Virus record (IMG/VR): IMGVR_UViG_3300032284_000302
Span: 1-25,896 of that record
Source of the DNA: a virus
Reading direction: 5' to 3' (one strand)
DNA length: 25,896 nucleotides
Shown here: in pieces, positions 3,001-24,281 of the stretch
Layout of the letters: every line of letters begins with the position of its first letter
How positions within the stretch are numbered: the first letter of the stretch is position 1
Notes under the pieces: generated by a model
Database searches by the model: none
Told to the model about the DNA's origin: nothing
Seen by the model: only the letters and a program-made list of their open reading frames with translations
Program-made: the position numbers and the translations under genes

Positions 3001-6000
3001 CAGTTGATTCTACCCACTCACATACTTCAACCACACTACCTGGAAATAGTCTACCCCAGTTTACACTTCTATATGCTAGATCACCTTGTTCATAATCAAT
3101 AAATCTTATACTATCAAGGTTCCACCAAACTTGACCTACTTGATTTTCATTCCAATAGTAACTGGTATTGACGTTTGTAGTGCCTCTGTTATAAGCCGCT
3201 GGATCATAGGCAGATTTATAGCTGATTTCTTGATCTGCTACACCCAGTATCTTGCCTTTGGCTGGATCAATAAATTCAAGGTTAGTTCTGATCGTATTAG
3301 TAAGATTATTATATAGGAATATCCTATTAACACTGTCTACATCAACCTTAGGTTGTTCGTATCTAATAAGATTCCAGCCTCTAGTAAGTTTAGGATTAGT
3401 AAACACATATACACTGCCTGCGTTAGTTTTTTGTGTGCTGTCTGCAGGTGCAGTAACCGCAATGTATTGTCCTACTATGTCAATGGCGGCACCAAATCTA
3501 TCACCTCTATTAAGGTCACCAGTATCTAACTGTTGTGCAAAGTGATATCTGCCAGGATGTTCAACCACATTCCTAGGATCATCATATAACTCATAAACGT
3601 ATGCACTGCCACTGCCATTAATAGTATCAAAGTATTCTGTAGTGGTGTTGTCAAACGTAGTAGATCTATGATCAAATACTGTGTAATCTCTTGTTGTGCC
3701 TCTATCACTTGATATCAACAACATGTATGCGTTGCTAGCCAACTTAACTTTTGTACCAAAATATTCGCCAGGTGCATTGTATGGATTGATAATAATCTGC
3801 ATGAAAGCAAATATTTTCATATTAGCATTAGCATATATACCAGTGCTGCCGCTAGGTGATCCAGATAATATACGTAGAATGTTTTTAAATACTGTCTTAT
3901 CACTGTTTATAACTAATACAGCTTGATTAGCAGCAACATATTGTTTTGTCGCTGTACAACCCAAGAGTTTACTGTTATTAATATCACCGATAAAACCATC
4001 TAATGTTATAGTGTTGGTTGTAAGGGAAGCTGTAAGATTCCCGGCATTTCCCTTGTCAAAGAATGTAACATTACCACTAAGTGGTGAAGTATTTTTAAAA
4101 CTTAATCCAACAAGGGTATCACTGTAGACATTAGTTACATACACATTACTACCAAAACTTGCATTATTAACATACATGCCACTGTATACAGCATAGGTAG
4201 TACCAACTGTTAGATTAGTACCGGAAATACTAGACATAGTGGTTATTACATTAGCTGGTTTGACAAGAGTTACAGTTGGTGTATTATAATAACCTGTGGT
4301 TAAATTAGTAATACTAACGGATTGTATAGCACCATTTGCGTATAAACTTAAAGATGCCGCAGGCGCAGTGCCATATGTTGTATCTGGATTGCTTACTACC
4401 ACTGTAGTGCCTGAGCTATAGTTATTACCTATATTATTAATGGTAATATTGGCAACACTCGTGGTTGCATAGACTTCAAAATTATCAAGACGTATATAAT
4501 CACCTACTGTAAATGTAGGATTTACTGCATATCCTCTATTAGTACCATATAATCTACCACGATTATGGAATTTAAATACTGCGCCAGTGTTATATGTGTT
4601 GCCATTCCTATAGTTTGGTGCACCAACATATATGGCACAGTTATTTGAACAAATTGTTAAACTTGTACCAAAGAATGCACCAGCTTGTACGCTCTGCACA
4701 TCACCTTCGAGGTTGTTTACACCAACAAGTGTTTCTAATATATTAAAGTAGTTAGTCTCTATGTAGATTAATTTACCAAGCGGTGGAGCCTCTGTAAATC
4801 TAATAGTGTTTGTACCAACAACTGTATAGTCTGTAACTTCTATCTCATCTATAGTTACACGATGTATAATGCTGATAGCACCCTTAGTGATATAATCCGT
4901 ATTGCCTGTAGAATTAAATGCCTCTATAACCCTATCATATACATAAACACTACCTGCATTTATTAATAGATTGCCATTGTTGTTTACGGTATCATTAGGT
5001 GCACCAATACCTAGCTGCGCACCATCATAACTACTGCTTAACGCAAAACCAAAATTACTGCCAGTCGGTCCAGTTAATTTAGTCACAAATGCATAATATG
5101 GTTTTTGAGTAACAGTGATATCGACATAACTGCCAACAACTGCTGTAAATTTAACCGTAGCATTAGCATAGTCTAAGTTGTAGTCAATGCCAGGTATATA
5201 TGTTTTACTATTCGTAGTAACTAGCAGACTGTTTGCATCATTGACTTGAGGTATAAATGTTAATGCTATATTGCTGGTAGTTGGTATTGCAGCTACCGTT
5301 TGTTTTGCATATTTTATATCTGATCTTAATCCATACACGTAAACACTGTCATGGCCTGGAGCACCTACATAAAGCCATCTAGAATTTTGATCTGATGCCA
5401 CGCTGGTGCCAAATTTATCACCGGCAACATTGCTGGTTAGCACCTGAGCCCTAATAAATGAAGTAATAGCTGTTTGTTTATTATAGACATAAACATAGCC
5501 CATACCGTTATTGCTGTCTGGGGCACCAACAAATGGTGTACCTGCACCTAGTTCTAAACTTGCACCAAAAGACACTGTGTTATTTGCTGTTGGCACTAAA
5601 AGATTCTGTTCTACAAATTTATTATCATAGGTTTTTGCAAAAACATTAACAACACCTGATCTAGCCGTAACTTTTGTTGGTATATAAATGCTGTTGTTGC
5701 CATTTATTGTTATATTACCTATTAGGTCAAGGGCTGCGGTCGCTAGATACTTACCAATAATATTTTTTGATGTATTGACATCATTTAATATTAATAGATT
5801 TGCACCACTGCTGGGCTGTGTAATATAATTACCTGAGTTTAATGATATATTATTGTTTAATGTAATATCAACACTGTTACTATTAGGAGAACCAACAAAA
5901 GCAAAAGTGCCATCATCGCCGTCACTTATACGAACACTTGTACCAAAGCCATCGTTGGTTACGTATTCTTCTGGTCGTTTTGCTAGACTGTATGCGATAT

Positions 6001-9000
6001 GCCATGGTGCTGTTTTTTCGTATACTTTCCAGGTATTTGCAGGTGTTTCTACTGGTTGGCCCTGTACAAATGTAGTGGCCGCATCAATGTCAACCCATAT
6101 TTTTTCACCTACTTTATATCCATGAGGTGGCATATAGAATCGTTGATCTTCTATATATTTAAAACGTACACTGTCTAATCTAAACAGCATGCCTCTACCC
6201 GTTTCTACAGTTAGATTTGATGTGTTGCCAGCGTATGCCACCATAATATTAGTTAGATCTACTACCTTGTAGACTTGGTAGAATCCATCAAATGCTGGAT
6301 CAAAGTTTCTTATCATACAGATCTTACCTGCTGTAAGATTATGGAATTGTTCGCTGGTAAATGTAATATAACCATCTAGGTTATTAGTTACTTTTGTAAT
6401 ATGGTTTTCTGTTTCTGTTACACGATACACATTCCAATTTTGTGTAAAATCTTTAGCACACCATATAGTATATCCGCTGCCAATAACACTTAGGTCCATA
6501 TCTAGCTGTTGATAATTTGCTAGATCAAATATAGTTGCATCTACATCATCTATGTTTACATAACCTGCCGTAGGTATGTCATTATTATAGTCACTGTGGC
6601 TGTCTCTTAATAATGCAATGTTACCATTAAATTGCGATGTAGATTTGTGTAGTTGTGCATTATTAAAGATGGTTATGCCATTGCCTAGAGTTCTATTATT
6701 GTAGTCAACGAATTCTGCAACTGCGGGATTAACACCAAATGCTTTTTCATCCAATGATATTTCTAGATATGGATTTGAATCTAACGCACCATATTCACCT
6801 ACTCTTACTGCATATTCTTCAAAATAACTGATTGCACTCTTGCTGTTATTGAAGCTAGCAGTTATCAGTTCGTTTACAGCATTTGCACTGCCTTTTTGTT
6901 TGATATAGCCTTTGTAAAATTCTATCTGAGTAGTTTCAGTGAGTCCTAAGTCTTCTAGATATGATCTAGACTTATATCCTATTAGCCCGTGACCATATGC
7001 AACCTGATCAGCATCATTAAAAGAACTGTAGCTGTCATAGTATTCGGCACCCTTATGAGATATACTACTGAAGTTGCTGAGTAAGCCAGTTTGGATTTGA
7101 CTCTTATCTAGATATTTCCAGTACTGGAATTGGAATTCATTAGCGGCAATAATGTCTTGTAGTGCTGTATAATATTGATTCTTATACTGGACAATATCAC
7201 CTTGGAGATAGTCTTTGCCCACTATCCAATCATTTACATTGCCACTGTTGTATATAAAACCAGGTGCGCTTAGACTACCATCCCAATTAGCAGTTTTTTG
7301 TCCTATTAGTTTTAATCTAAATTGTCTATTACCTAATTCTGGTTTATATATAACATCATTAAACAATGTTGTATTATCGAAAACTAAAGCATGTTCATAT
7401 TGTACAAGATTTAATTCTACATAGGCAATAGTATTTAAATTAGTTAATCTTAGATTAAAAGCAGTCGGACTACGTAATATTTTAAAATCTGTATTTCTAA
7501 CAAGATTAAAGTTTTGATCTAAAACTTTAGAACCATATTGTGTGCTAGTTACTTCGTCCACTATAGCACCATTGGTAATAACATTTATAGAACTGCTGGC
7601 CGGTGATAGTACAAGAATGCTGCCTTTTTTCCAACCCTGTTGTGCCCAAAATAAGAATTCTTTAACAGATAACTTCCAATCTTTTATTTCACTAAGATCA
7701 CTATCTGAGTCAGTAAATTGGAAACCCTGTCCTACTAGATATCTCTGATAGCTAATTAAGAAGTCTGCTAGCTGTTGCTGTGTATTAAATTCATATCCAT
7801 AAGGTACTGTTAGTTTAACGGCCCTATAATCATTATAAATTACTGCTGTGCTGTTTAGTACCTTAACACTGATAGCACTACTATTAACTATACTTGGAAT
7901 AATAGTAAAGTATGGATCAGTTAGATTGTATCCTCTTACACTATATCCAGCACTGGTTTTTTCTACAATAACTGCACTGTAAGTAATTTTTTGTACAGGT
8001 GGCGTTTTGTATAGATATACAGAATAATTTTCATTTGGTATTACGATACTGTTATTAGTACTTGAAGGGCTACTCTGTTCTGCTAATACTTTTATATATT
8101 TTTTATCAGTGAATCCACCAACTTTGTATGCTAGATTTAATGTGTGCCCATTTATCATATCCATTAGTTTAGTAACAGGATTAATACCTTGGTTTATTAG
8201 ATAATCTGCTATCCAATTTATATACCCCGCAGCTCTTAGTACAGTACCAGGCATAGAGGTTGTATCACCATTAACAACGATGTCTTTTTGTCTAATGTGC
8301 TGGTTTGTGTCCACTGTTAGGAATTGACCCTGCGCATTGTAGATATTGTATCTACTAATGTCCATTAATGTGCCGAAGAATCTAGCAGGTTTAAGTACAG
8401 CTAATGCCTGCATTGCAGCAAAAGGAAAGTCGCTGCTTGTGCGCCAAGCAAATTCTACCGGACCTTGTTGTCCTATATCATAACTTGCACTGGCAGTCTT
8501 GCTGTTAAATATCTGTGTTAATATTGATCCTGGACTCAATAGATATCCATTCTCATCTACTGGAATTATATTTTTTAATCCAGGTCTTTGGAAGTGTGGG
8601 TCATATGTAGGTGTGAATGTGCCATCACCATTATCAATCGCTCTAAAACCTGCACGTATTGTACCTGCTTCTAAGTCATCCCATAAAAGTTTATTACCAC
8701 CAGTATAAGGTGCTGGACCATAGTATTGTTGCCACCAGTAAGGCTGTTCAGCAAAGCCCAACATTTCCCAAGGTGTAATATGAGGTCTTACAGTGTCGAA
8801 GAAATATTGATAACATGCACGCCAACTACCAGGTAACGCTTCACCATCTATCCTATCTGGCATGCCGCCATAGTTCCATGTAAATGGATCATTAGGATCA
8901 AATACATTATTACTAGAAAAATCTAGTTTATTGTTGCCTATCCAAAGAAGGAAACTAGACGACAACACACGGGCAACATCAGAATTTAAATAGTCTGTCT

Positions 9001-12000
9001 TCCTAAATTTTCCAGGTATGCTTGCGTAAATGTCTGGATATGTGCCGGTGTCAAACACTTTAATATTGTTATAGATACGTCTTTCTAATTCTATAAGGAG
9101 TGCATCTCTATAGTCACCGAATACCGGTGTTAAACTACCGTCATGACCTTTGATAACATCTGTTGCCGTTCTATAGGTGTCGTCTGTAAAGATAACCGGT
9201 ATAAACTTTGGCCATAGTCCTAACTTACTTGGTGTTTCGGGAATATAGTTACCATCTGTGTTACTGTATTCTTTTATAACGATTATGTCATCAACAAACA
9301 ATGGGGTGTTGTCAGTTAGTATAATAGCAGGTCTGTCTGTGGCAAATGAGTAATTATACTCTTTAACTAACTGTTGTCCATTCAAGTAGACCAATACAGC
9401 TTGATTGCTTAATTGGGTGCCATTAAAAATTTGAGTAATTTCATAGTATCTAGTCAATGGATCAAACACCGTATAGGTAATTTGATTAAACAGTGTACCA
9501 TATGGCACCATATCACTGTAATACCAGGGAAATGTTTTGTTTTTAATACTGTTGATATTATTAAGTATTAGATCAACTGTGCTAATAGGATCTGTAGGAT
9601 CTACACCAGTAAGTGTCACACTTAGCTCTAAGAATTTATTTTTAAATTTTGTATATTCTTGTTGGGCAAGTTTTAGCGCACTTATAAAGTTTGCTTGTTC
9701 TTCTACCATAAACATCATAGCGTATGTAATTGGTGCACTGTGCTGTAATATTGTGCCACCTTGAGCTTTGATCTCTATGTCCCTTAGATTGCTTACACCA
9801 AATAAATCACCTACTATAGTTTTGCTATTTTGGCCACAAGTACTAACATGGTTTCTAAATTGGCCCAGTGTAACATTGCCTAAATCTACATTTAGTCCAT
9901 TGTAATCTAGATTATTGGGTATCTGATAATATCCCTGTTTGCTAACCTGTTTGCTGTATACACGAACATCTATCTTATCACCAGGCACAAATGGAACGTT
10001 TAGGTTTAGCAAGGTGCCATCTAGATACCAGTCTGTATTTTTAAGGTAATTATTATTTAGATAAACTGAGATATAGGGCAGAAGACTTTCCTGATCTGGT
10101 ACAAGATCTAACTGGAAAGGATAGTTTAGGGTGTTGTATACAAAACTTAAGATTTGAAACTGTTTACTGTACTCTACTGCTGTTTGCCATACGTTTATAA
10201 ACTCTGGTCCGGAATCTTTATTTTTTTGCAGGAATGCTGTTGATATTGGCACATTGTTATAAACAACACCATTAAGTTCATAACTGTAGGTATCTGTGTC
10301 AATAAAATTTGTAAATTCTATATCACCCTGTGTGCCAATGCTTCTGTAACTTAATGGAAATCCCAAAACCTTGTCATTTGTGCCATTGCCTACAGCATAT
10401 CCAAATATATTGGTACCAGAAAACGTGCTTCTAGATTTAGCACTTAGACTTACACCATTGTTATCAATCATATCATACAATGGTGGTTGATAAACAGCAG
10501 TTTTGTTTTGAGCGGCATGCCATGCATTTCCATCATACCACCATTGGCTACCTGCATATCTGCCCTTTGCTACAACAACAGTATCGTATTGTACAACATC
10601 TCCATCATCTGCCTTGACAAGATTAATCTGTGGTAATCCATATGGTACGCCATTTTCATCTTGATATGGTTGTATAAGATTAATAACCCAGATCTTATCT
10701 CGTACTAGGGGATCATAGTCTGCAGCAAACACAATTCGCATGCCATCTGTTACTGTCACACCAAAAGCAAACGAAATGTTTTTTCCATTTAATTCTGTAA
10801 AGGCATCAGTGGTTGTAGTATCTAATATATTAATAGCTGGCTTGCCATTGATACCATAATTAAACAACTGTATGTTTGTTTCGAATTGGATAATAGGTCT
10901 AAGTGCTCTTAGACTTTGATCAAATACAGCTGGTTTATTGTTGTAACTGGCAGCTGCGGTGATTACCTGTCTATGAAACCATCTGTTATTTCTAGACCAG
11001 GCATTTAGATCCTGGCTAGCTCTATTAATAGTAACATATTCCGGAAACACAGTATTATAATGTATGTCTGTTACTGTTGTGCCATCTGGTATGCCTTGAG
11101 CAGTTACAGGACCACCTACAAGAACAGTGCTGACATCACTTAATGTAATAATGTATGCGTCGCCTACCTTTACTTCTTGATTTGTGATCACTGATATGCC
11201 ATCAACTAATATAATATCACCTGCAGCAATAGGTGCAGTTGCAGAAAGACTAAGCACGATTCTTTGTAGTGGATAGTTTAATTTATTTTCTGAATTATAT
11301 TTTTCTGGTGTTATTAGCAGTCTTACATCGACTAGTATAATACCAGCTCCAACTTGTTCAACGTAGTATGTGTTATTTTTGTATTGGTCAGGTATTACCG
11401 TGTCGTCAAACTTAATTTTTAATCCGCTAGTAAAGGCAACACCATTAGGACTTGTATAGTATTCTTTACCTAATATATCTTGCTCTACATCAATAATAAA
11501 GTCACTGATGTTTACAAGTTTAAAACTGCCATATATACTAGAACTAGCACCATCTTGGTAATATGTAACAGGTTGGACTGCTGTAATTAGTGGCACAGGT
11601 TTTAATATGTCGGATGTCGATCTGTAGAAATCTTTATTAGCGTTTACAGCACCAGATCTTATGTTTACTTTTTCGTTTTGATTAATAATTCTGTGTTTGC
11701 CATCAGCATCTCTATTATCAAGTCTTATAATATAGTCATTGTTTGGACTGTTTACAGGATATATTAATTGAGTAACACCGTTTATTGTTATACATCTTGT
11801 GTCAGCTGTAGATGTGGGCACACCCAATACATTAGTAAAAATTATTCCATTATCATATGTAACATTTACCGAGACCGAGTTTGTCGCCGCTTGAGTTACT
11901 GTTGCACTTGCACCACTACTGTATTGTGTTATCTTATCACCAGCTTTAACTGTTACAGGTTTACTTAAAGTTAAAACATTGGTGCTGGGCACTAGATAGA

Positions 12001-13369
12001 GTGTCCATACTGATATGCGCTGACTAACTGGCACGGTTGCACCAATGCCAAACTGAGCATGATCCCAATCAGGTGGATTAAATGCCCATGGGGTTTCGTC
12101 CCAAGGCACATCTACAAATGGACCTTGAGTAGTCCAGAACGGATCTGGTTGAGTTACAGTAAACACAAGGTCGTTTAGTAAATCTACACCACCTAAACTT
12201 GCACCACTGATCGTAATGGTGTCGCCACTGCTGTAGTTTACGCCACTGCTGGCTACTTGGATTGTTACTGCGTAGTTATATATTGATCCATTGCCAGTTT
12301 TTGTAATGTTAAACAATGCACCACTGCCTAATCCACTTGTGCTTTTTTGTTTTACTCTGCTGTATACACCAGCGGCAGACACACTAGTACCAGCTATGTT
12401 ATTAAAAATAATGTCGGTGGGTATGCCAGCATTTACAAATTTAGTTGTGGCTTTGGTATTAGTTAGTTGATCTTGATTAATAAAAACAAAAGACTTGCCA
12501 TTTAGTTGTGTTAATGCTAGGCCGTCCCATACACCTGGGTTTTTATTAACTTGACTTACAAGCTGACCTTGTAGACTACTATATGCAAGACTTACTGTAA
12601 AGTCTGCGCTATAGACTCTTGGCATATTTAGATAGTAATCTTGTGCAGTGGCCAATGGCACTTGATATGTGATAGTGCCTACATCTATGCCATTGTTAGT
12701 CACACCCAACATGTCTCTAGAGCTTAGTGTAGGCATTGCGTTTACTCTACCATCTAAACCTAGTTCGCTCTGTATCCAAAAAGGTATGCCAGGTTGGTCA
12801 ACAACAAATTTATATGTGCCACCACGTGCTAGGATAATACTGTTTTTATCTACTCCATTGCTGTTAAAACTATATGTGCCTGTGCTGGCATTTCTGCTTA
12901 CTACAAATGTGTTTGTGCTTTCAATCTGTCCAGCAAAAACATTTACCGTGTCTGGACCATTTGGTAACCAATAGTATTGACTAAAATTTACTATCTTGTC
13001 AAAACTTATTTTAGGATCATAGCTGTAATATTCTTGATCAAACAATCTACTGTGGTTAGTAATAGATGCGCCATAATATTTTAACTTATTAAGAAAGTCT
13101 AAATATGTTGTAAAAAAAGTTATGTTATTTTCTTTATCTTTGATAACAAGACTGGGTTCAAGTTGAAAGTTCTGTCTATCAACTGTTATTTCTCTTACAT
13201 AACTATCTGAGCCTTTATAGGTAGGTGCAAATCTTCTACCGATATAACCATTAATAGTTCTTAGATTTGGTTCTGTAACTAACTGATCTAGAGTGGCAGA
13301 TAGAAACTTTTCGTTGGTGTCAGTCTGAAAGACTATGGGCAGTAATTTACTAGTTTTTCTAATAGCCAT
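1..13369 (-). CDS. Giant virion structural protein in the gp7 position of the baseplate cluster (3' end missing)
   Basis: A single minus-strand frame stays open from the ATG at 13369 to the left edge: 4456 codons with no stop. I read it through and confirmed the phase at both ends and at several internal points. The N-terminus (MAIRKTSKLLPIVFQTDTNE; then YYWLPNGPDTVNVF near residue 110) matches the large structural proteins found next to gp6 in marine T4-like phages. A second familiar block at about residues 1467-1577 has DPFTWNYGGMPDRIDGEALP, HITPWEMLGF and YYGPAPYTGGNKLLWDDLE. Seven FG-GAP-like motifs occupy about residues 2473-3327. Gly-Ser-Gly-Tyr beta modules occur near 2970-3010 and 4000-4074. 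The last residues (NGERITYYTRDLVNNVLGQI near 4411) form a module often seen close to the end of such proteins, so little may be missing. T4 gp7 has 1032 residues; this is over four times longer. Position suggests a baseplate wedge or peripheral fibre role; sequence alone does not prove orthology to gp7. Confidence 0.9.
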   Translation of the reverse strand, partial: MAIRKTSKLLPIVFQTDTNEKFLSATLDQLVTEPNLRTINGYIGRRFAPTYKGSDSYVREITVDRQNFQLEPSLVIKDKENNITFFTTYLDFLNKLKYYGASITNHSRLFDQEYYSYDPKISFDKIVNFSQYYWLPNGPDTVNVFAGQIESTNTFVVSRNASTGTYSFNSNGVDKNSIILARGGTYKFVVDQPGIPFWIQSELGLDGRVNAMPTLSSRDMLGVTNNGIDVGTITYQVPLATAQDYYLNMPRVYSADFTVSLAYSSLQGQLVSQVNKNPGVWDGLALTQLNGKSFVFINQDQLTNTKATTKFVNAGIPTDIIFNNIAGTSVSAAGVYSRVKQKSTSGLGSGALFNITKTGNGSIYNYAVTIQVASSGVNYSSGDTITISGASLGGVDLLNDLVFTVTQPDPFWTTQGPFVDVPWDETPWAFNPPDWDHAQFGIGATVPVSQRISVWTLYLVPSTNVLTLSKPVTVKAGDKITQYSSGASATVTQAATNSVSVNVTYDNGIIFTNVLGVPTSTADTRCITINGVTQLIYPVNSPNNDYIIRLDNRDADGKHRIINQNEKVNIRSGAVNANKDFYRSTSDILKPVPLITAVQPVTYYQDGASSSIYGSFKLVNISDFIIDVEQDILGKEYYTSPNGVAFTSGLKIKFDDTVIPDQYKNNTYYVEQVGAGIILVDVRLLITPEKYNSENKLNYPLQRIVLSLSATAPIAAGDIILVDGISVITNQEVKVGDAYIITLSDVSTVLVGGPVTAQGIPDGTTVTDIHYNTVFPEYVTINRASQDLNAWSRNNRWFHRQVITAAASYNNKPAVFDQSLRALRPIIQFETNIQLFNYGINGKPAINILDTTTTDAFTELNGKNISFAFGVTVTDGMRIVFAADYDPLVRDKIWVINLIQPYQDENGVPYGLPQINLVKADDGDVVQYDTVVVAKGRYAGSQWWYDGNAWHAAQNKTAVYQPPLYDMIDNNGVSLSAKSRSTFSGTNIFGYAVGNGTNDKVLGFPLSYRSIGTQGDIEFTNFIDTDTYSYELNGVVYNNVPISTAFLQKNKDSGPEFINVWQTAVEYSKQFQILSFVYNTLNYPFQLDLVPDQESLLPYISVYLNNNYLKNTDWYLDGTLLNLNVPFVPGDKIDVRVYSKQVSKQGYYQIPNNLDYNGLNVDLGNVTLGQFRNHVSTCGQNSKTIVGDLFGVSNLRDIEIKAQGGTILQHSAPITYAMMFMVEEQANFISALKLAQQEYTKFKNKFLELSVTLTGVDPTDPISTVDLILNNINSIKNKTFPWYYSDMVPYGTLFNQITYTVFDPLTRYYEITQIFNGTQLSNQAVLVYLNGQQLVKEYNYSFATDRPAIILTDNTPLFVDDIIVIKEYSNTDGNYIPETPSKLGLWPKFIPVIFTDDTYRTATDVIKGHDGSLTPVFGDYRDALLIELERRIYNNIKVFDTGTYPDIYASIPGKFRKTDYLNSDVARVLSSSFLLWIGNNKLDFSSNNVFDPNDPFTWNYGGMPDRIDGEALPGSWRACYQYFFDTVRPHITPWEMLGFAEQPYWWQQYYGPAPYTGGNKLLWDDLEAGTIRAGFRAIDNGDGTFTPTYDPHFQRPGLKNIIPVDENGYLLSPGSILTQIFNSKTASASYDIGQQGPVEFAWRTSSDFPFAAMQALAVLKPARFFGTLMDISRYNIYNAQGQFLTVDTNQHIRQKDIVVNGDTTSMPGTVLRAAGYINWIADYLINQGINPVTKLMDMINGHTLNLAYKVGGFTDKKYIKVLAEQSSPSSTNNSIVIPNENYSVYLYKTPPVQKITYSAVIVEKTSAGYSVRGYNLTDPYFTIIPSIVNSSAISVKVLNSTAVIYNDYRAVKLTVPYGYEFNTQQQLADFLISYQRYLVGQGFQFTDSDSDLSEIKDWKLSVKEFLFWAQQGWKKGSILVLSPASSSINVITNGAIVDEVTSTQYGSKVLDQNFNLVRNTDFKILRSPTAFNLRLTNLNTIAYVELNLVQYEHALVFDNTTLFNDVIYKPELGNRQFRLKLIGQKTANWDGSLSAPGFIYNSGNVNDWIVGKDYLQGDIVQYKNQYYTALQDIIAANEFQFQYWKYLDKSQIQTGLLSNFSSISHKGAEYYDSYSSFNDADQVAYGHGLIGYKSRSYLEDLGLTETTQIEFYKGYIKQKGSANAVNELITASFNNSKSAISYFEEYAVRVGEYGALDSNPYLEISLDEKAFGVNPAVAEFVDYNNRTLGNGITIFNNAQLHKSTSQFNGNIALLRDSHSDYNNDIPTAGYVNIDDVDATIFDLANYQQLDMDLSVIGSGYTIWCAKDFTQNWNVYRVTETENHITKVTNNLDGYITFTSEQFHNLTAGKICMIRNFDPAFDGFYQVYKVVDLTNIMVAYAGNTSNLTVETGRGMLFRLDSVRFKYIEDQRFYMPPHGYKVGEKIWVDIDAATTFVQGQPVETPANTWKVYEKTAPWHIAYSLAKRPEEYVTNDGFGTSVRISDGDDGTFAFVGSPNSNSVDITLNNNISLNSGNYITQPSSGANLLILNDVNTSKNIIGKYLATAALDLIGNITINGNNSIYIPTKVTARSGVVNVFAKTYDNKFVEQNLLVPTANNTVSFGASLELGAGTPFVGAPDSNNGMGYVYVYNKQTAITSFIRAQVLTSNVAGDKFGTSVASDQNSRWLYVGAPGHDSVYVYGLRSDIKYAKQTVAAIPTTSNIALTFIPQVNDANSLLVTTNSKTYIPGIDYNLDYANATVKFTAVVGSYVDITVTQKPYYAFVTKLTGPTGSNFGFALSSSYDGAQLGIGAPNDTVNNNGNLLINAGSVYVYDRVIEAFNSTGNTDYITKGAISIIHRVTIDEIEVTDYTVVGTNTIRFTEAPPLGKLIYIETNYFNILETLVGVNNLEGDVQSVQAGAFFGTSLTICSNNCAIYVGAPNYRNGNTYNTGAVFKFHNRGRLYGTNRGYAVNPTFTVGDYIRLDNFEVYATTSVANITINNIGNNYSSGTTVVVSNPDTTYGTAPAASLSLYANGAIQSVSITNLTTGYYNTPTVTLVKPANVITTMSSISGTNLTVGTTYAVYSGMYVNNASFGSNVYVTNVYSDTLVGLSFKNTSPLSGNVTFFDKGNAGNLTASLTTNTITLDGFIGDINNSKLLGCTATKQYVAANQAVLVINSDKTVFKNILRILSGSPSGSTGIYANANMKIFAFMQIIINPYNAPGEYFGTKVKLASNAYMLLISSDRGTTRDYTVFDHRSTTFDNTTTEYFDTINGSGSAYVYELYDDPRNVVEHPGRYHFAQQLDTGDLNRGDRFGAAIDIVGQYIAVTAPADSTQKTNAGSVYVFTNPKLTRGWNLIRYEQPKVDVDSVNRIFLYNNLTNTIRTNLEFIDPAKGKILGVADQEISYKSAYDPAAYNRGTTNVNTSYYWNENQVGQVWWNLDSIRFIDYEQGDLAYRSVNWGRLFPGSVVEVCEWVESTVLPSGYVAAGYDGVPKHADNSAYVEISYVDSVTNVISSKYYFWVTGKTSITKTNSNRSLPIASIQTLIENPKGQGIAYAAIIKNNAISTYNINQYLSANSTILHLDYELVKNTNIIHSEYELIQKGNPDSKIPDKVINKLVDSLSGINQAGEVVPDPKLSLADRYGIGIRPRQSMFVDRVKAMHNLVQFVNGVLIQYPITKEYDISELNSQEPIPPSKTQAGDLGVYDISIPVQTDLQFVDTADLKVGYKVLVVSDTTQNGLWVIYELAEDGTWKIYRVQSYVTSKYWQYTDWYATGYSAVDKPTYNVGTLIDALKLPYAVGNIIKINNTGTGLWQLVKVNSSGAFDTIGIQNGTIQLDYSVSDYASYNVGFGNQAYQDNRFDENPNIEIRSIIDALRTQIFVGNLAVEFNNLFFVMVNYVFSEQNYVDWIFKTSFISVKHQLRALDQFPSYIQDNQTYYQDYINEVKPYSTKIREYLIDYTANDRYLGFATDFDLPPYYDSSTGIFRSPSGDGYNVDVGTDEALWQKQDYISWYNHRNSIVSRIIVEDGGSGYTTVPNVSIIGGGSAAYGVNATATAILNFDTGTITSIVVNYSGSGYSQSPDVVINGNSTTPARAYAVLTNPWIRNLGVTMKFDRIGYTSVVKDWIPGNSYIAGDIVRYNGEGYTVNSNLTANLTFLASQYTKLTAADFDNANDRIMAYYTPNNKMPARDLKQIIFGVEYPGVIITGLPFTAQPGFDATSDRPYSTPHGIQLLSIEERDAYYSSLFTSLDTVVSNLWYNQDLGIMYQYKGGYPYQPNAWVAVPGASNLGIDFDGDQFDNVQYDSDGNPVIDDNVLDTVISSKYTDAALGTRPEDINIDGGRYVDTYSSHAPEEFVPGICFDAISMQVYTKVGDGSGGEAIIGYRMFNNMLNNTSYFRIADSGSTQLSQDLNLTDTEIHVFDANKLAEPNPVASIPGIIFVNGERITYYTRDLVNNVLGQIRRGTEGTCISVTHKQYDI
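3389..5953 (-). repeat. Seven FG-GAP-like motifs inside the giant structural protein
   Basis: The pattern is FG(T/A)S, a short strand, (V/I)G(A/S)P, then a VYVY-type strand. The Phe residues are near 2475, 2601, 2653, 2773, 2900, 3204 and 3292. Clear examples are DKFGTSVASDQNSRWLYVGA and DRFGAAIDIVGQYIAVTAPA, each followed by VYVY or VYVF. The first carries an acidic loop, SDGDDGT. FG-GAP repeats form blades of integrin-alpha-type beta-propellers. Seven motifs fit a seven-bladed propeller, but spacing is uneven (52 to 304 residues against about 60 typically), so inserts between blades, or blades I could not see, must be assumed. Confidence 0.7.
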
Positions 13370-17217: not shown

Positions 17218-19290
17218 TTACCCTTGCTGTAAGGCAGGTACTTTGGGTGCTAAGATTGTGGCAGAGAACTTGCCCATTTGGAAATAACTATTGCCTGTTA
17301 CTCCAGCAGCAACACCACTGCCAGTAGTTCTCCAAGTATATGCACCATTTGGTCCTAATAGATGACCAACTGCCAACATGCCGGCCATTTCTTCAGGTGC
17401 TAAGTCACCTGTTATGGCACCATTACTGGCCATGGCATTATAATTGCCCATAGTATAGTCTGCAATAGCAGTTTCTTGTATGTTTGTTAGATTAATAAAT
17501 GCATCTAGACTTGTTGCGCCATCTTTACCTGTCCATACATTTGGATTTGTTTGCATTTGACTGTTGTTCTTACATGCCTGGCCAACATAACCTAGGTTTT
17601 GTAAAGTGGTATAGTTAAACTGATATTTGCCAACCTTACCATCAGTGCCTATTTTAGTGTAATCATTGTCACTCTGTTGCTTACCTAACTGTGCATAATA
17701 GGCTGTCATTTGGTTCTGATTAAGTGTAGCAATAGTGTTGTAGGCAGTGGGTTGATTTCTTAGATCTTTATCAGTTGCTGGATTGGAAACGCTGGTGCCG
17801 GCTGTAGTTTTAGTTGCATCTGTCTTGCCTGTATATGTGGGCTTAGGTTCAAGGCCAGGAGTTGTGTCAGAACTAGGCATGCTATTTGTATCGGGTCTTC
17901 CATATGGCTCATGTGTAGGGAGTTTAGTAACAATACTGCTGACACTGTTTGGTTGTGCTATATACTGATTATCCTGTTTTACACTGTCTGCAAACTGTTG
18001 TACAGGTAGTGGTGTAAGTGCCTTAACTTTAACAGTGCCACCACTGTTTTCTAGTATCGTTGATCCTTCTATTGCAACTTTATCACCGGCAAGTATACTG
18101 ATCTTAGCATCACAGTCTACATATAGATAGGCGCTCTTTATATCCATGCCGCCTGTTGCCTGTAGACTAATACCAGTAGTGCTCAATACCTTAAAACCAG
18201 TAGCATTAAAATATGTCTTACCGCCGCTATTGATATTAATAGCATTGCCTGCATTAATATTAATATTATTGTCACTGTGTATGTTTATAGATCCTTTAGA
18301 ACGTAGGTTGTATCCGCCGTTCGCAAAGACATCTATACTGCCACTGGCTGTTAATTCTATCCAGCTTTTACCACTGGCATGTGCTATATATAGACTGCCT
18401 TTGGTATCATGCATCATAATCTGATGACCTCTAGCACTGCGTATTCTTATTAATTGGTCTTCACCCGTAACGTTGCCGTCATCCATAACCAACACGTGAC
18501 CACCTGCTCTAGTAGCATAGGTATAATCACTGGCTGTTAGTGAATTGTTGTTTAGATCCTGTTGGAATTTATCTTTATTATAGGCAAAGTTATCGGGAAA
18601 CGGTCTACCAGGTGTGCTAATACCAAAAACATTACTGGGTGTTTCACGTTGACTGCTACTAGAAATAGTACCTCTTGTGGTATCATTCTGTAGACCTTGC
18701 TCTAACAATATATTATATTGTGGTTCATGCACTGGTTTATTAAATCTATAGAATGAAGGTGCATCAATAGTTGCCGGATCAAATTCATTGAATTCAGTTA
18801 CTGGTGCAGGGGTTCCAGAAGTATATGTGCCAGTAACTGAACTATTGGCCCCGTCTAATGCAACATCTGCACTGCTGGCTAAGCCCGGCATCATATATCT
18901 ACTTAGATTGCTGTTTACACATGCTATCCAATATCCACGTAACGGATCGCCCGCAATAAAAATAACGATTACTTCATTTTCTATATCAGGTGGTACCATC
19001 CACATGCCATAGGTATGGTTTGTACTACCGAATTTATTTTGTTTGTTTGCTGGTTCTGTGTATGTGGTACCCATAAATGGACTAGCATAGCTTACAGTCT
19101 GCCAGTTTTTAGGATCATCTTTGTTACCACCAAGGTCTGGTATCCATACCTGTAATCTGCCGCATCTTGTTGGATCTATATTATTTTTAACAACACCAAT
19201 ATACGGATGTGGATCTACCAGCGTTGCTGGAGAATCCTGTCTACGTAATTCTGAACTTACTTTGTTGCCAATTCTACTATTGGTTGCCAT
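17218..19290 (-). CDS. 5: Baseplate central spike/hub protein gp5 with a C-terminal lysozyme-like domain
   Basis: This 690-residue protein (T4 gp5 has 575) should form the trimeric spike under the tail tube that pierces the outer membrane. Residues about 28-136 form the OB-fold (HPYIGVVKNNIDPTRCGRLQ; GMWMVPPDIENEVIVIFIAG; DPLRGYWIACV). Residues about 263-425 are a repetitive Gly/Asn/Ile-rich stretch (GSINIHSDNNININAGNAIN) typical of the triple-stranded beta-helix. A Pro/Thr/Ser-rich linker with PTHEPYGRP follows. Residues about 520-685 resemble transglycosylase/lysozyme-like domains (DGKVGKYQFNYTTLQNLGYV). T4 gp5 has its lysozyme between the OB-fold and the helix, so the order differs. The position where related domains have the Glu of an ES motif looks like Gln539-Ser540. 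AAGGTAA lies before the ATG in a 17-base gap after the hub gene. Confidence 0.9.
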   Translation of the reverse strand: MATNSRIGNKVSSELRRQDSPATLVDPHPYIGVVKNNIDPTRCGRLQVWIPDLGGNKDDPKNWQTVSYASPFMGTTYTEPANKQNKFGSTNHTYGMWMVPPDIENEVIVIFIAGDPLRGYWIACVNSNLSRYMMPGLASSADVALDGANSSVTGTYTSGTPAPVTEFNEFDPATIDAPSFYRFNKPVHEPQYNILLEQGLQNDTTRGTISSSSQRETPSNVFGISTPGRPFPDNFAYNKDKFQQDLNNNSLTASDYTYATRAGGHVLVMDDGNVTGEDQLIRIRSARGHQIMMHDTKGSLYIAHASGKSWIELTASGSIDVFANGGYNLRSKGSINIHSDNNININAGNAININSGGKTYFNATGFKVLSTTGISLQATGGMDIKSAYLYVDCDAKISILAGDKVAIEGSTILENSGGTVKVKALTPLPVQQFADSVKQDNQYIAQPNSVSSIVTKLPTHEPYGRPDTNSMPSSDTTPGLEPKPTYTGKTDATKTTAGTSVSNPATDKDLRNQPTAYNTIATLNQNQMTAYYAQLGKQQSDNDYTKIGTDGKVGKYQFNYTTLQNLGYVGQACKNNSQMQTNPNVWTGKDGATSLDAFINLTNIQETAIADYTMGNYNAMASNGAITGDLAPEEMAGMLAVGHLLGPNGAYTWRTTGSGVAAGVTGNSYFQMGKFSATILAPKVPALQQG

Positions 19291-19307: not shown

Positions 19308-22300
19308 TTAACCTGTTATTGCGGCCGCACCTGGCACCTGGTTGCCCGCTACACTTATTGGTGCGTAATCTGGTGCTGGACCAACTTGATTTACTGCTAA
19401 TGTGCCACCAATGCTGTTGGTTACATCTGTGTATGCACTTAAACTATAACTTGGAGCAGACTGCGCAACTTGCGATAGTTGTGCTTGTTGAGCATTATAA
19501 ACACTACTGCCTGTATCTAATAATGGGGTACTGCCTGGTGCTGTGCTATCTGCTGCAGTCGGTGACGGCGAATTAAAATTAGGTCCAATGTCATAGTTCT
19601 GACTAATAGCAGCTTCACCGGGTGGTTGTGTACTTTCTCTCTGTGGATTATTTGGATCGGCTTTGCCTGCCATATTAATAGACTGTCTTGGTAGTCGTAC
19701 TATGTCTAGCGTCTGTGTAAAATGTCCGCCACTAAAATTGCTTTCAACTGTTAGTACTCTATATAGACCGCTAAATTTACTTTCTTTATATTTGGGATCA
19801 TATTTCACTAATCCAGTCATTTCATCTAAATCACTGGGGGATTTAAAAGTAATATTTACATACACTTCACCTGCATCTGTTTTAATACTGCCGTTAGATG
19901 TAAGTCTAGGATCTACAGTAGGATCAAACGTGGTGGCATTTACTAATGTATATTGTGGTGAAAAGAATAGATCATCCTGTTTAATAAAACTAGGATCACC
20001 TATAATTTTTAATTTAAGACTAATCATGTCACCTTGAGCACTTGTATACAGACTGGCTTGGGTGTCAACTGTTGCGGCTTGTTTTTGGCTTATTTCACCA
20101 CCCGTTGCCTTTATTTTAGTATTTGGTGGTACCGGTCTCTGACCTACAGGCTGTACTGCATTTGGTTGATCTGGTAATCCACTATCGCCCGTTGCTACAC
20201 TGCTGTCGGATTCTGTTACATCATTGATATCTGCCATATTACCTCTATAGTTGGTAATTGCAGTGTAATAAAGAGCATTAAATTCTATGTTTAGGTCTAG
20301 GATTTCATCGTTTAAACCAGTGTAATAGTAGTGGTAGTCTTTTAATGGATTGCTGGCCTGACCTTGGGGGGTCACATCTATCTTAGTATTATAGATAGGA
20401 TATGGCATGACATGATATGTTATAACTCTACTATAGTGTTTTGTTTTAGGATCATAGTCTTTTAGTTCAATAGTTGGCACTATCTTAAACCAATTAAATG
20501 GAAGATTAGAATATTTTTGTTTAGCAGCAAGAAAATCCTCTTTGGTTTTATAGTCTTGTGGTACCACAAGTTGATTCTGTATGTAGTCGCTGTTACGTAA
20601 CACATAGTTAATAATCTGTTCTACACTGGTGCCTGCATTTATAGAAAATATTCTTAGGCCATACTGTAGATCATCTGCCTTGGCATTGGTATTTGCTCGT
20701 CTACTGGAAATTTCGTTTGGATCGCCCATTGGTGTATCTTTACTAGACTGCTTGCCTTGACCTAATATACTTTTAAATCCTGTACCATCTATCTCACCGT
20801 AGAATTTAAATTGATATTTGTCTGGAAAAGTTAGTTGATTATTCCTAACCTGGTCATTTTGATATGCATTTAACGCACTGCCATAGCTTTTAACTTTGTA
20901 TATTCTATCTGCACTTGCGGGTGCGGGGGATGATTGTGCGTTTTGTGCAGAGGTTGGATTTGTAGTGCCTGCATTAAGTGTATTACTGCCTGCGTAGCCC
21001 GGTCCATTTAGTTTTGGTGCAGCAGTGGCACCCGTGGTGGAAGGACTTGCGCTGCCAGAAACGGGCATACTAGCAAATCTATTAGAGCCATATGTTGTGT
21101 TTGGTTTGCTGGCAGTAGTAGTTGGTGCTGGTTGCCTTTGGCTTGTAAAGTTAATAACTGGATCGGATGTTTCTGTGCTTTGGAAAAAACTGTTTACAGT
21201 ACCAGCTGTAACTTCAAATCTTGCAGGTGTCTGCACTGTAGAAACATCATATGCGCTATGATTATATGGTACTGCCTGTATATTATATTCTGCACCTTTA
21301 TGACTGGCTTTTACTGTCATACCAGTTAACTGTATTGGAATATATTTTGATGTATTGGGTATTTGACCCACGATATTGCCTGTGTCATCTATGCCATAGA
21401 AATCTACTTCTAATAGGTATGGACACGCTAGATAATTGTCTATGTTAAGATCCTTACACTGAAACAATATTCTATCTACCAGTGTAATACCATAGGGTTC
21501 CATAATATCAAATTTTAAATCAATGGCATTGGTTGCTCGTGAATTTGAATTTAAACCCACGATTGTGGTCATTGATAGATTTTCAAAATAGAAATCTTCA
21601 TTGAAGTAAGGACTACGTATAAATTGGTTAGTACCTAGAGTGTTATTGTATCTACCAGCACTGGCTATTAAAACTCTATTAGCCACAAACTTTCCCTGCT
21701 GTATGGTTGTGTTGTATTCATCTGGTGTTAATAGATGTAGACTAATACTGTATGTCCAACTTGCATAGGCAAGTAAAGGATTAGGCACAGGAAATGTAAA
21801 AATGCCAGTGTTGCTGTTTATGGGAATATAGTCTGGATTACCAGCACTTGTAGGAGGTTCAGTTGGTGGGGTAGGTGGGGTAGCTGCTGTATTGGGTTGT
21901 CCGCCACCCACTAACAATATAGTGCCTACCTTATAGCCTTCTACCTTACTCATAGCATGTACAAGTGCTATTCTTTGATCTGCGCTTAAACTTGATAGCG
22001 GCGTATTACTGCTGACCCCCAATGCTGTTGTAATACTATTAATATATGCTGTGGTATTGTTTTCGCTGGGTGGTGCATATTTTGTAATTGCATCTGCTAT
22101 ACTGAGATTTATATAGCTCTTGCCAAATAACAATGCAGACTGTGCGGCATAACCAGCATCTGGTGTTGCAAAAATAGCAAATGCACCATCACTGCCTATA
22201 TAGCCTGGTTGGCTTCTAGCAAAAGATCCATCTCTTATGTCACCGGGATTATTATTGCGCCATGGGATATTACCAATACGTTGGACTTGGTTGCCTGCAC

Positions 22301-22376
22301 CATCTATTACTGTGAGAGTAGTGCCTACCTTACTAATGTACTGGCTAATGCCGTTATCGGATACTGAAGTAGCCAC
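19308..22376 (-). CDS. Baseplate hub protein with an N-terminal peptidoglycan-hydrolase-like domain
   Basis: This 1022-residue protein starts with GTG, 1 base after the gp53 stop, so coupled translation is likely. Residues about 39-147 carry WRNNNPGDIRDGSFA, GAFAIFATPDAGYAAQSALL, KYAPPSENNTTAYI and AMSKVEG. This pattern is found in phage proteins annotated as structural or lysozyme-like (NNPGN type). A Pro/Thr linker (160-180) leads to a body at about 181-410 (VPNPLLAYASWTYSISLHLL), a low-complexity linker (412-490) and a second body at about 491-896 ending in SGLYRVLTVESNFSGGHFTQ and TLDIV. This ending is shared with hub proteins of marine phages. Residues 900-979 are another Ser/Pro/Gln-rich linker. 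The last 43 residues hold one copy of the repeat found in the gp48-like protein. Location between gp53 and gp5 suggests it replaces or contains the gp27 hub function (T4 gp27: 391 residues); that is inference. Confidence 0.65.
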   Translation of the reverse strand: MATSVSDNGISQYISKVGTTLTVIDGAGNQVQRIGNIPWRNNNPGDIRDGSFARSQPGYIGSDGAFAIFATPDAGYAAQSALLFGKSYINLSIADAITKYAPPSENNTTAYINSITTALGVSSNTPLSSLSADQRIALVHAMSKVEGYKVGTILLVGGGQPNTAATPPTPPTEPPTSAGNPDYIPINSNTGIFTFPVPNPLLAYASWTYSISLHLLTPDEYNTTIQQGKFVANRVLIASAGRYNNTLGTNQFIRSPYFNEDFYFENLSMTTIVGLNSNSRATNAIDLKFDIMEPYGITLVDRILFQCKDLNIDNYLACPYLLEVDFYGIDDTGNIVGQIPNTSKYIPIQLTGMTVKASHKGAEYNIQAVPYNHSAYDVSTVQTPARFEVTAGTVNSFFQSTETSDPVINFTSQRQPAPTTTASKPNTTYGSNRFASMPVSGSASPSTTGATAAPKLNGPGYAGSNTLNAGTTNPTSAQNAQSSPAPASADRIYKVKSYGSALNAYQNDQVRNNQLTFPDKYQFKFYGEIDGTGFKSILGQGKQSSKDTPMGDPNEISSRRANTNAKADDLQYGLRIFSINAGTSVEQIINYVLRNSDYIQNQLVVPQDYKTKEDFLAAKQKYSNLPFNWFKIVPTIELKDYDPKTKHYSRVITYHVMPYPIYNTKIDVTPQGQASNPLKDYHYYYTGLNDEILDLNIEFNALYYTAITNYRGNMADINDVTESDSSVATGDSGLPDQPNAVQPVGQRPVPPNTKIKATGGEISQKQAATVDTQASLYTSAQGDMISLKLKIIGDPSFIKQDDLFFSPQYTLVNATTFDPTVDPRLTSNGSIKTDAGEVYVNITFKSPSDLDEMTGLVKYDPKYKESKFSGLYRVLTVESNFSGGHFTQTLDIVRLPRQSINMAGKADPNNPQRESTQPPGEAAISQNYDIGPNFNSPSPTAADSTAPGSTPLLDTGSSVYNAQQAQLSQVAQSAPSYSLSAYTDVTNSIGGTLAVNQVGPAPDYAPISVAGNQVPGAAAITG
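19311..19439 (-). repeat. Single hub-protein copy of the SAYTDVTNSIGG repeat
   Basis: Residues 980-1022 of the hub protein begin with SAYTDVTNSIGG. The first unit in the gp48-like protein begins SAYSDVTNSIGG, a match at 11 of 12 positions, and both are preceded by a related AP(S/N)YS(L/V) segment. Similarity fades after about 26 residues (VGPAPDYAP against APSYAGG). Confidence 0.8.
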
Positions 22377-22377
22377 G

Positions 22378-22677
22378 TTATAATCCTAGACTTGCTTTTA
22401 TTACATCTTTTTTGGGAATATATATTGTAGTGCCTGGTAGGAAATCAAAGACTGGATCTTCTAGCGTGTTGGGATTTCTTACTGCAAATACCCACCACAG
22501 ACTGGTATCACCATACAAGTCAAATGCCAATAGATCTGGTCTAAATTTGTATATGTCTTGTATCCTATATACTACATCTGATGAATTCTTTGGCAAGTCT
22601 CTAGGTGCCCAAACATCTAAAAAGAAACCATATTTTTGTGAATCGTAGTATGGACTACTCTTGTTATAAGTTGCCAT
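22378..22677 (-). CDS. 53: Baseplate wedge protein gp53-like
   Basis: This 99-residue protein matches the short gp53 proteins of marine T4-like phages (T4 gp53 has 196). In T4, gp53 joins neighbouring wedges and contacts gp25 and gp6. Visible features are an N-terminal SPYYDSQKYGFFLDVWAPRD, the central YKFRPDLLAFDLYGDTSLWW, VFAVRNPNTLEDPVFDF and a C-terminal LPGTTIYIPKKDVI. The last piece resembles the end of a LysM module, where a binding strand ends in an IYIP-type motif. The ATG overlaps the upstream gp48-like stop by one base (TAATG), and the gene ends 1 base before the hub GTG, so the three genes probably form one translationally coupled unit. Identity rests on the Trp-Trp region and gene order. 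Confidence 0.85.
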   Translation of the reverse strand: MATYNKSSPYYDSQKYGFFLDVWAPRDLPKNSSDVVYRIQDIYKFRPDLLAFDLYGDTSLWWVFAVRNPNTLEDPVFDFLPGTTIYIPKKDVIKASLGL

Positions 22678-24281
22678 TAAATAAATCCTCCATAACCACT
22701 CATTGCATCTTGCAGCAATCTACCGGCGGCAAAGTCATTAAGGTTAAATCTATCATGTAGATTTTTTCTACTGTACATGGGTTTAACCGTAACTTGTATT
22801 TGACTAACAGTTGGTACTCTTGTAATAGTTGATATTGGTCTTTTAGTTATAGATTGTACTGGACTTAATGCACTCTGTAATAGACTTGGAATATTTTGCA
22901 TGCCTGCATTATCTAAGAAATTCACAGCACCGTTAGTGGCCACTGTGGAATTCTGATTGGTGTTTACACTAACCGTATTCTGTAAAGGGATCTCAATGTA
23001 ATCTACTTCGTTGCCCATAACATGATTAAAGCTGGTAACTACACATGGCACATGGGGGAAATAATGACTACCATAACCATCTAAAAACAGTATTGGTGGC
23101 GGGTTGCCTACATTGTCACCACTGCCAAAAAACATTTTTGTGGCGGCACGGAAGAAATATATGGCCGCCAATAGATACTTGCCTTCACTTATGTTCTGTA
23201 CAGTAAAATCACCACTAATATTAATCTCACTGACATCACTGTTTGTGTAGAAATTTTGTGGATAGTTGCTGTGTACTGGTGTCATAGGACTATAGTTAGC
23301 CTGATGTGTGATGTTAATCTGTGGTGTATAAGGCCATATCACACCGTTTGTTGCCTGTAGTGGTGCCATTAATGCATTACTGCTGTCTTTATAAAATATC
23401 TGGGGACCATTTGCAGCTAGACTAAGTCTAACTCTCCAATCTGTATCACTGCCACTAGCTGGTCCGAATCCGCCGCCTGTTAAAAAATTAATAACAGGTG
23501 CTATAGGTCCACCACTCGCTGATCCTCCAGGAAATAATCCACTAGCCGCTCTACGACTGATACTGGGATCTTGTATGTCAAATGCAGTGTTAGTTGCAGA
23601 AGGGTCATACCCACCACCACTTGCCTCTGTCTGATCACCATAATATCCACCAGCAAAACTAGGTCCAATGGCGGCTGTATCTGTAACAGCGGCATCACCA
23701 CCTATACTATTTGCTGGGTCTGTATACGCACTTGGATTATTGGGATCATATCCACCGCCTGTACTTTCTACTGCACCTGGCACATATCCACCAGCATAGC
23801 TAGGTCCAACGGCTGTGGTATCTGTTACTGCTGCGGCACCACCTATACTATTTGCTGAATCGGTGTAAGCACTGGGATTATTAGGATCATATCCGCCACC
23901 ACTTGATAGTGTCTGATCTCCATAATAACCGCCTGCATAGCTAGGTGCTGTAGTACTGGTATCTGTAGTTGCTTGGGCACCACCTATACTATTTGTTACA
24001 TCTGAATATGCGCTGACACTGTAATTTGGTGCATAATCTCCTGCAGCACTGGTACCTGCAGCTGGTGCTGTGGTGTCTGTGGTAGATAGATAGGCACTAT
24101 TGGGATCATTACCACTTATTGGCACAGATGGTTGAGTAGATGTAGTTCCCTGTACTTCTGTTGTAGTGGTTTGATCTACAGCAATAACCTGTTGCTGACT
24201 GTCTGCAGATAGAGAACCAAATGTAGTTTGTAAACCAGTGGTTGGATCTGTAACTAAACTTGTGTCACTGAATGCAGTCAT
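22677..24281 (-). CDS. 48: Baseplate tail-tube cap protein gp48-like, with N-terminal tandem repeats
   Basis: This 534-residue protein combines an unusual N-terminus with a conserved C-terminal body. Residues 1-89 are Thr/Ser/Gln-rich, residues 90-230 are three 47-residue repeats, and 231-280 is Gly/Ser/Pro-rich. From DWRVRLSLAANG at 281 it resembles gp48-like tube-cap proteins of marine T4-like phages: WPYTPQINITHQANYSPMTP, NFYTNSDVSEINISGDFTVQ, AIYFFRAATKMFFG, PPPILFLDGYG and VEVTVKP-like QIQVTVKPMYSR, ending in SGYGGFI. T4 gp48 (364 residues) caps the baseplate hub and, with gp54, starts the tube; gp54 is a related alternative here. It is the first gene of the late operon, 27 bases downstream of an exact late promoter, with GAGGTA before the ATG. 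Confidence 0.75.
   Translation of the reverse strand: MTAFSDTSLVTDPTTGLQTTFGSLSADSQQQVIAVDQTTTTEVQGTTSTQPSVPISGNDPNSAYLSTTDTTAPAAGTSAAGDYAPNYSVSAYSDVTNSIGGAQATTDTSTTAPSYAGGYYGDQTLSSGGGYDPNNPSAYTDSANSIGGAAAVTDTTAVGPSYAGGYVPGAVESTGGGYDPNNPSAYTDPANSIGGDAAVTDTAAIGPSFAGGYYGDQTEASGGGYDPSATNTAFDIQDPSISRRAASGLFPGGSASGGPIAPVINFLTGGGFGPASGSDTDWRVRLSLAANGPQIFYKDSSNALMAPLQATNGVIWPYTPQINITHQANYSPMTPVHSNYPQNFYTNSDVSEINISGDFTVQNISEGKYLLAAIYFFRAATKMFFGSGDNVGNPPPILFLDGYGSHYFPHVPCVVTSFNHVMGNEVDYIEIPLQNTVSVNTNQNSTVATNGAVNFLDNAGMQNIPSLLQSALSPVQSITKRPISTITRVPTVSQIQVTVKPMYSRKNLHDRFNLNDFAAGRLLQDAMSGYGGFI
23592..24014 (-). repeat. Three tandem 141-bp (47-residue) coding repeats in the gp48-like gene
   Basis: Units span residues 90-136, 137-183 and 184-230 with exact 47-residue periodicity. 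Consensus parts in order: SAY(T/S)D, NSIGG, a (V/T)TDT segment, PS(Y/F)AGGY, a variable part (GDQT in units 1 and 3), GGGYDP. The DNA copies (24014-23874, 23873-23733, 23732-23592) differ at many synonymous positions, so the duplication is not recent and the amino-acid pattern appears maintained. A degenerate fourth start (DPNSAYLSTTD, residues 59-69) precedes the array. Confidence 0.93.

Follow-up and report, generated by a model that had tools for sequence, protein, structure and literature searches.

Ig-like and similar accessory domains are modules of one type that occur on the ends of several virion proteins and are gained and lost among relatives. In T4, the tube cap and the baseplate hub are present in six and three copies, respectively, and are located between the tube and the spike (PMC3004832). 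In cyanophage A-1(L), the flexible C-terminal tails of gp16, a LysM/gp53-like protein, are inserted into the hub or else pair with the initiator of the tube, so that terminal arms acting as connectors have a precedent (PMC10966104). Here we analysed IMG/VR record IMGVR_UViG_3300032284_000302 (positions 1 to 25,896, the whole stretch of 25,896 nucleotides being referred to as the window), a contig of an uncultured giant phage of RaK2/PA5oct-like lineage, and describe a family of short repeat units, termed tags, in its cap and hub proteins. Unlike the folded Ig-like domains, the tags are units of ~20 residues which are predicted to be unstructured and are confined to tail-axis proteins within the searched set. 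They resemble the A-1(L) tails as flexible baseplate-protein ends that reach the hub or tube initiator, but those arms are specific to one protein whereas the tag motif family is repeated and common to unrelated proteins. We propose that the tag is a portable flexible docking tag rather than a junk repeat, a reading to which we give a probability of roughly 40%.

The cap gene (22677..24281; every window feature given here lies on the minus strand) encodes 534 residues and matches phrog_12050 over residues 280-525 (E 1.2e-45). The profile match and an AlphaFold2 (AF2) model delimit a folded domain at residues 281-534 (22680..23441), and Foldseek searches with the predicted fold returned weak matches to the A-1(L) baseplate initiators and the T4 baseplate-tail tube (5iv5), with E-values of 1e-3 to 2e-2 and a best of 1.1e-3. 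The cap gene lies beside the genes for a 99-residue gp53-like baseplate wedge protein (22378..22677; PF11246, E 4.8e-5; phrog_7145, E 6e-25), which carries no tag, and for the hub, in the same order as in RaK2, PA5oct and XaC1. Its tube-like predicted fold and gene position support its assignment as a gp48-type tube cap, or baseplate initiator. The hub gene (19308..22376, GTG start) encodes 1022 residues and matches phrog_11190 (E 2.2e-38). Its predicted fold matches an extracellular contractile injection system hub (E 2.5e-6) as well as phage hubs, the A-1(L) hub, VgrG and T4 gp27, which points to a gp27/VgrG-type hub. Both phrog_12050 and phrog_11190 are classed as head and packaging in PHROGs; given the gene order and fold, these families belong in the tail baseplate instead.

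A first-pass annotation of this DNA had described three cap units with an exact 47-residue period and a single unit ending the hub, all sharing SAY(T/S)DVTNSIGG, and had suggested a common interaction site, a clasp, a display module or copying from gene to gene. The period was confirmed, with NSIGG at cap residues 97, 144 and 191, and the pentapeptide recurs at hub residue 987. The 47-residue period is a compound of two shorter units, B (consensus GYDPNNPSYGNQANSIGG..., in full GYDPNNPSYGNQANSIGGxAAVT), of which the annotated motif is a variant, and A (consensus APSFAGGYYGDQTEASGGGYDP, with an invariant GG..G.Q....GGG in its seed alignment). The two overlap in a shared GYDP, and a third type, C, has the consensus APDYAPISVAGNQVPGAAAITG. 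The common motif held for the first cap unit and the hub, to which DVTNSIGG is limited, but not for cap units 2 and 3, which read SAYTDSANSIGG and SAYTDPANSIGG. In the cap, the units run B-A-B-A-B-A: B' at residues 86-108 (...YSVSAYSDVTNSIGG..., 23958..24026), A at 112-133 (APSYAGGYYGDQTLSSGGGYDP, 23883..23948, 43.7 bits), B at 130-155 (GYDPNNPSAYTDSANSIGGAAAVTDT, 23817..23894, 39.4 bits, its GYDP in common with the preceding A), a degenerate A at 158-180 (VGPSYAGGYVPGAVESTGGGYDP, 23742..23810, 20.1 bits), B at 177-202 (GYDPNNPSAYTDPANSIGGDAAVTDT, 23676..23753, 39.7 bits) and A at 205-227 (IGPSFAGGYYGDQTEASGGGYDP, 23601..23669, 45.8 bits). The hub C-terminus reads B-C. A B' unit does lie near its end, as annotated (residues 977-997, YSLSAYTDVTNSIGG..., 19386..19448, recognised from the cap/hub alignment), but it is followed by a C unit that runs to the end of the protein (residues 999-1022, 19311..19382, 42.5 bits, i-E 4e-13). 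Among arrays the copy number varies, with 1-3 compound copies at a spacing of 32-48 residues.

These scores were obtained with profiles built without the window sequences, using 500 composition-preserving shuffles as the control. The cap A units (44, 20 and 46 bits), the B units (39 and 40) and hub C (42.5) compare with a best shuffle of 4.9-8.8 bits. With the B profile, hub B' (7.9 bits) fell within the shuffle range and the first cap B' (9.2 bits) at its edge. The kinship of these two is instead based on their direct alignment and on the presence of the B' variant APNFQVSAYSDQTNSIGG in the hub C-terminus of relative L188 (L-numbers denote loci of IMG/VR relatives). Direct local alignment of cap and hub scored 100, a value that none of 2000 shuffles approached more closely than 84, whereas the two proteins without their tags scored 41 against a shuffled mean of 46, which is noise. 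The first-pass annotation was thus correct in viewing the cap and hub as otherwise unrelated in sequence and as separated by the gp53-like gene. Together these comparisons indicate that the repeat shared by the cap and hub is real, but larger and built differently than first noted.

Exact-pattern scans of viral_contigs together with profile searches identified tags on 22 of 57 non-redundant RaK2-type caps and 16 of 49 non-redundant hubs, at either hub end; the contigs are fragments and the threshold was 15 bits, so degraded tags may be missed (weak remnants occur in L160 and L179). Tags were also found on T4-type caps (phrog_230) of another lineage (6/66 in the tree set, one a duplicate fragment; L004, L017, L039 and L076 are among them) and at the C-terminus of a tail-tube-like protein in L012 and L026, on contigs separate from those with tagged caps. 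The sheath gene neighbouring the tagged tube-like protein is closest to the jumbo phages Phosso, Atu_ph07 and the PA5oct group; the window cap is also matched by the PA5oct group and by two Agrobacterium records. Across 15,557 open reading frames (ORFs) from 310 loci there was no convincing tag outside the tube-like, cap and hub proteins, and whole-record hidden Markov model (HMM) searches of contigs of up to 219 kb placed tags in cap or hub frames only. Exact-pattern matches in short or unrelated ORFs of L006, L007, L010, L011, L013, L015, L018 and L032 agreed only in the searched heptapeptide and were rejected as chance, and an L082 frame called a hub by a rough profile is actually a cap fragment. 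The first-pass annotation had warned that the motif might be widespread in unrelated low-complexity proteins. This was not seen: scanning viral_contigs for AY(S/T)DxxNSIGG returned two stretches, of which one is the L188 hub C-terminus of a related phage, the one further real occurrence, and the other has no such peptide in any frame of at least 110 codons.

The tag profile found nothing over the whole genomes of RaK2, PA5oct, XaC1 and Vibrio 2.275.O, and the homologous proteins of eight isolates had no tags on inspection. A tblastn search of the isolates with a two-unit query gave no match, though the low-complexity filter may have masked tags, and two strict tag-pattern scans of bacterial and archaeal genomes were empty. 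No significant Pfam or PHROGs family covers the tag regions, and a literature search on the tail proteins of jumbo phages brought up no relevant account of repeats that are disordered or rich in glycine. Within everything searched, then, the tag is restricted to the ends of tail-axis proteins, namely the tube-like protein, two unrelated cap types and the hub. Unit C forms the conserved C-terminus of many related hubs (for example L001, L014, L020, L037, L093 and L173) and, in some caps (L019, L094/L108, L095 and L188), also lies close to the N-terminus, so unit types have been exchanged between the two genes across phages. On the cap tree, cap tags required 4 changes against 17.7 expected on shuffling, which indicates inheritance within clades. 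Hub tags required 7 changes on the same tree, where the window cap stands apart on a long, weakly placed branch. Tags have been gained and lost clade by clade.

We suggest that the tag would act as a multivalent docking ligand, a set of repeated linear ligands on tail-axis subunits. In each unit, a P-x-(Y/F)...Y-G-(D/E)-Q or S-(A)Y...NSIGG peptide would be recognised by a binding site of a common partner, and copies on six cap and three hub subunits, if T4 stoichiometry applies, would keep that partner in place or bring it in while the baseplate and tube are being assembled or at injection. Candidate partners include another baseplate protein, the tape measure protein or a host factor. In favour of a docking tag, its units are present on RaK2-type caps, hubs, T4-type caps and the tube C-terminus, four different tail-axis proteins, and arrays that vary in copy number and spacing are easier to reconcile with multivalent binding than with a fixed fold. 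The low dN/dS of the tags and the codon divergence of the hub and cap copies, both given below, count in its favour too. The common interaction site suggested by the first-pass annotation thus survives in a wider form, as a tag family on several tail-axis proteins that is conserved as protein, although its proposed form as a cap-hub clasp found no support. AF2 models, built from 39-40 sequences, gave the cap array mostly a pLDDT below 50 and no strands, and hub region 975-1022, which holds the hub tags, was also below 50, which predicts that the tags are disordered.

Several points weigh against a docking tag. Low pLDDT is no proof of disorder, and the loci were retrieved mostly around cap genes, which biases the counts of carriers. 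Pooled dN/dS over 13 cap pairs was 0.12 for the tags, 0.16 for the adjoining linker and 0.09 for the folded domain; these values are approximate, as dS is near 1 and close to saturation, the tag regions were picked by HMM match and several pairs overlap. We nonetheless take them to indicate purifying selection on the tags at the protein level, since relaxed neutral repeats would differ. The first-pass annotation had held that homologous phages lacking the motif in both genes would refute its reading, and such phages exist: at the 15-bit threshold, 17 of 45 relatives lack tags in both genes. The tag is therefore an accessory that varies among phages, dispensable and not essential to the machine. 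One candidate for a co-occurring partner proved uninformative. The window holds an open frame of at least 4456 residues (2-13369, incomplete at the window edge) in which an FG-GAP repeat and carbohydrate-binding modules were recognised; of 22 uncultured relatives searched, 21 have FG-GAP matches, located in frames of 4.0-4.9 thousand residues, as against 0 of 4 isolates. The FG-GAP propeller of this giant baseplate protein is present in tagged and untagged uncultured relatives alike and does not track the tag.

Of the alternatives, the one that survives best, though we think it unlikely, is that tags exposed at the tail tip bind or mimic a component of the host surface or cell wall, taking the position that a lysozyme has in other hubs. 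In the window hub, the N-terminal slot is occupied by a lysozyme-like module (approximately residues 36-162, 21891..22271; phrog_873 'endolysin', 3.6e-22), also found in the hubs of L031, L165 and L212, and slots elsewhere contain Phage_lysozyme2, tags or helical sequence. Among the 49 non-redundant hubs the slot is lysozyme-like in 15, the window included, tagged in 6 and occupied by other sequence in 28, and it never has lysozyme together with N-terminal tags; with 1.8 such hubs expected, this exclusion falls short of significance, and lysozyme is found together with C-terminal tags in 7 hubs. Like VgrG/hub fusions and hub lysozymes, tags are exchangeable modules at gp27-type hub ends, but they have no enzymatic domain and also occur on caps and the tube-like protein. 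An envelope role would accord with the hydrolytic activities of the A-1(L) hub (PMC10966104). The cap array also matches the cell-wall-binding repeats of Cpl-7 weakly in sequence (5i8l, E 0.0017). The CW_7 repeat is helical; it shares a similar period and G.YDP with the tags, but these are Gly/Pro rich and not predicted helical, and we rejected a CW_7 assignment as the family is absent among Pfam matches at E 1 and at E 10. The tagged T4-type caps and tube-like proteins, in addition, are not tip parts. Separately, the gp5-like spike protein (17218-19290) has a further lysozyme-like region at its C-terminus, matched by PHROGs annotated as 'baseplate hub subunit and tail lysozyme', and with lysozyme-like regions in both spike and hub the phage may carry two muralytic modules at its tip.

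Less likely again is that the tags are stickers, rich in Tyr and Gly and poor in Lys and Arg, which gather tail proteins in a condensate or focus before their incorporation. Consistent with this, 94 distinct units comprise 22% Gly, 12% Tyr+Phe+Trp and 2% Lys+Arg and are predicted to be disordered; residues 57-236 of the window cap contain no K, R or H and 18 D/E. The position-specific conservation of GG..G.Q....GGG, however, exceeds what composition-driven condensation needs.

Two further explanations fit the data less well than a docking tag. The tags could be non-functional low-complexity sequence, expanding by slippage or neighbour-gene copying and tolerated at protein ends, which we regard as improbable. 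Copy number is variable, cap units 2 and 3 are identical at 35/47 residues, and caps without an array have short N-termini; against this, the dN/dS of the tags is near that of the folded domain and the motif recurs in unrelated lineages yet in no other protein class. In addition, the window hub and cap copies are identical at 15/18 residues but use the same codon at only 6/15 of those, so their synonymous codons are randomised and recent copying between the neighbouring genes, one form of the copying raised in the first-pass annotation, is not supported, nor is duplication at the DNA level. The likeness between hub and cap is therefore old and kept by protein-level selection, unless the two acquired it separately. 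More improbable still is the clasp, in which cap tags and hub tags would bind one another. Both genes are tagged in the window, L014, L033/L037, L093 and L188, but a tag in one gene does not predict a tag in the other. In 45 non-redundant relatives with both genes readable, 17 had neither tag, 15 the cap tag only, 8 the hub tag only and 5 both (Fisher p = 0.74, with only 2-4 phylogenetically independent pairs), and this co-occurrence, no greater than chance, argues against mutual binding. The T4-type and tube-like proteins are moreover tagged without a known tagged neighbour.

Kelch repeats are also ~47 residues long, and the tags share with them this rough period and a GG...YDP spacing. The A+B profile matches designed kelch proteins (8pjw, E 4e-9) and Keap1 (E 0.02), but most such matches have no individually passing stretch and are thus sums of Gly/Tyr-rich matches. 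We reject as largely refuted, and very improbable, the reading of the tags as degenerate kelch-like blades of a beta-propeller, since no Pfam kelch family matches any of 8 arrays at E 10, the 1-3 compound copies are variably spaced at 32-48 residues rather than forming the at least four regular blades of a propeller, and AF2 predicts no strands, with pLDDT mostly below 50.

The same protein ends carry other modules. The N-terminal mini-domain M of the cap (residues 1-43, 24153..24281; AF2 pLDDT blocks of 80-96) has the pattern DTxVxDPxTGxxVEFGxLSxxxQQ over ~40 residues, and its HMM matches 7 caps, as well as the L014 hub, at 55-79 bits (copies at 8887-9006 and 7142-7261 of L014, minus strand). 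It has no Pfam or PHROG match; it is a second module common to caps and a hub, and AF2 predicts with confidence that it is folded. The hub C-termini of L008, L016, L048, L051, L150, L178 and L216 have long Ala/Gln-rich, probably helical tails in place of tags, often preceded by a recurring VNxTAPExxI..TEP segment.

A broader proposal, which we hold more tentatively than the docking tag itself, is that the tag may serve the tail axis as a shared address, a disordered and mobile peptide code which would mark tube, cap and hub for one receptor and would have spread between unrelated myophage lineages, so far in uncultured phages only. Whether virion proteins share linear binding codes, and how tail parts meet, are open questions on which the tag bears. 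At the ends of hub and cap proteins, tags, lysozymes and small domains are exchanged, and the tag marks out a large group of giant phages that are uncultured. As a short conserved peptide on varied tail-axis proteins, it offers a concrete bait in the hunt for a partner.

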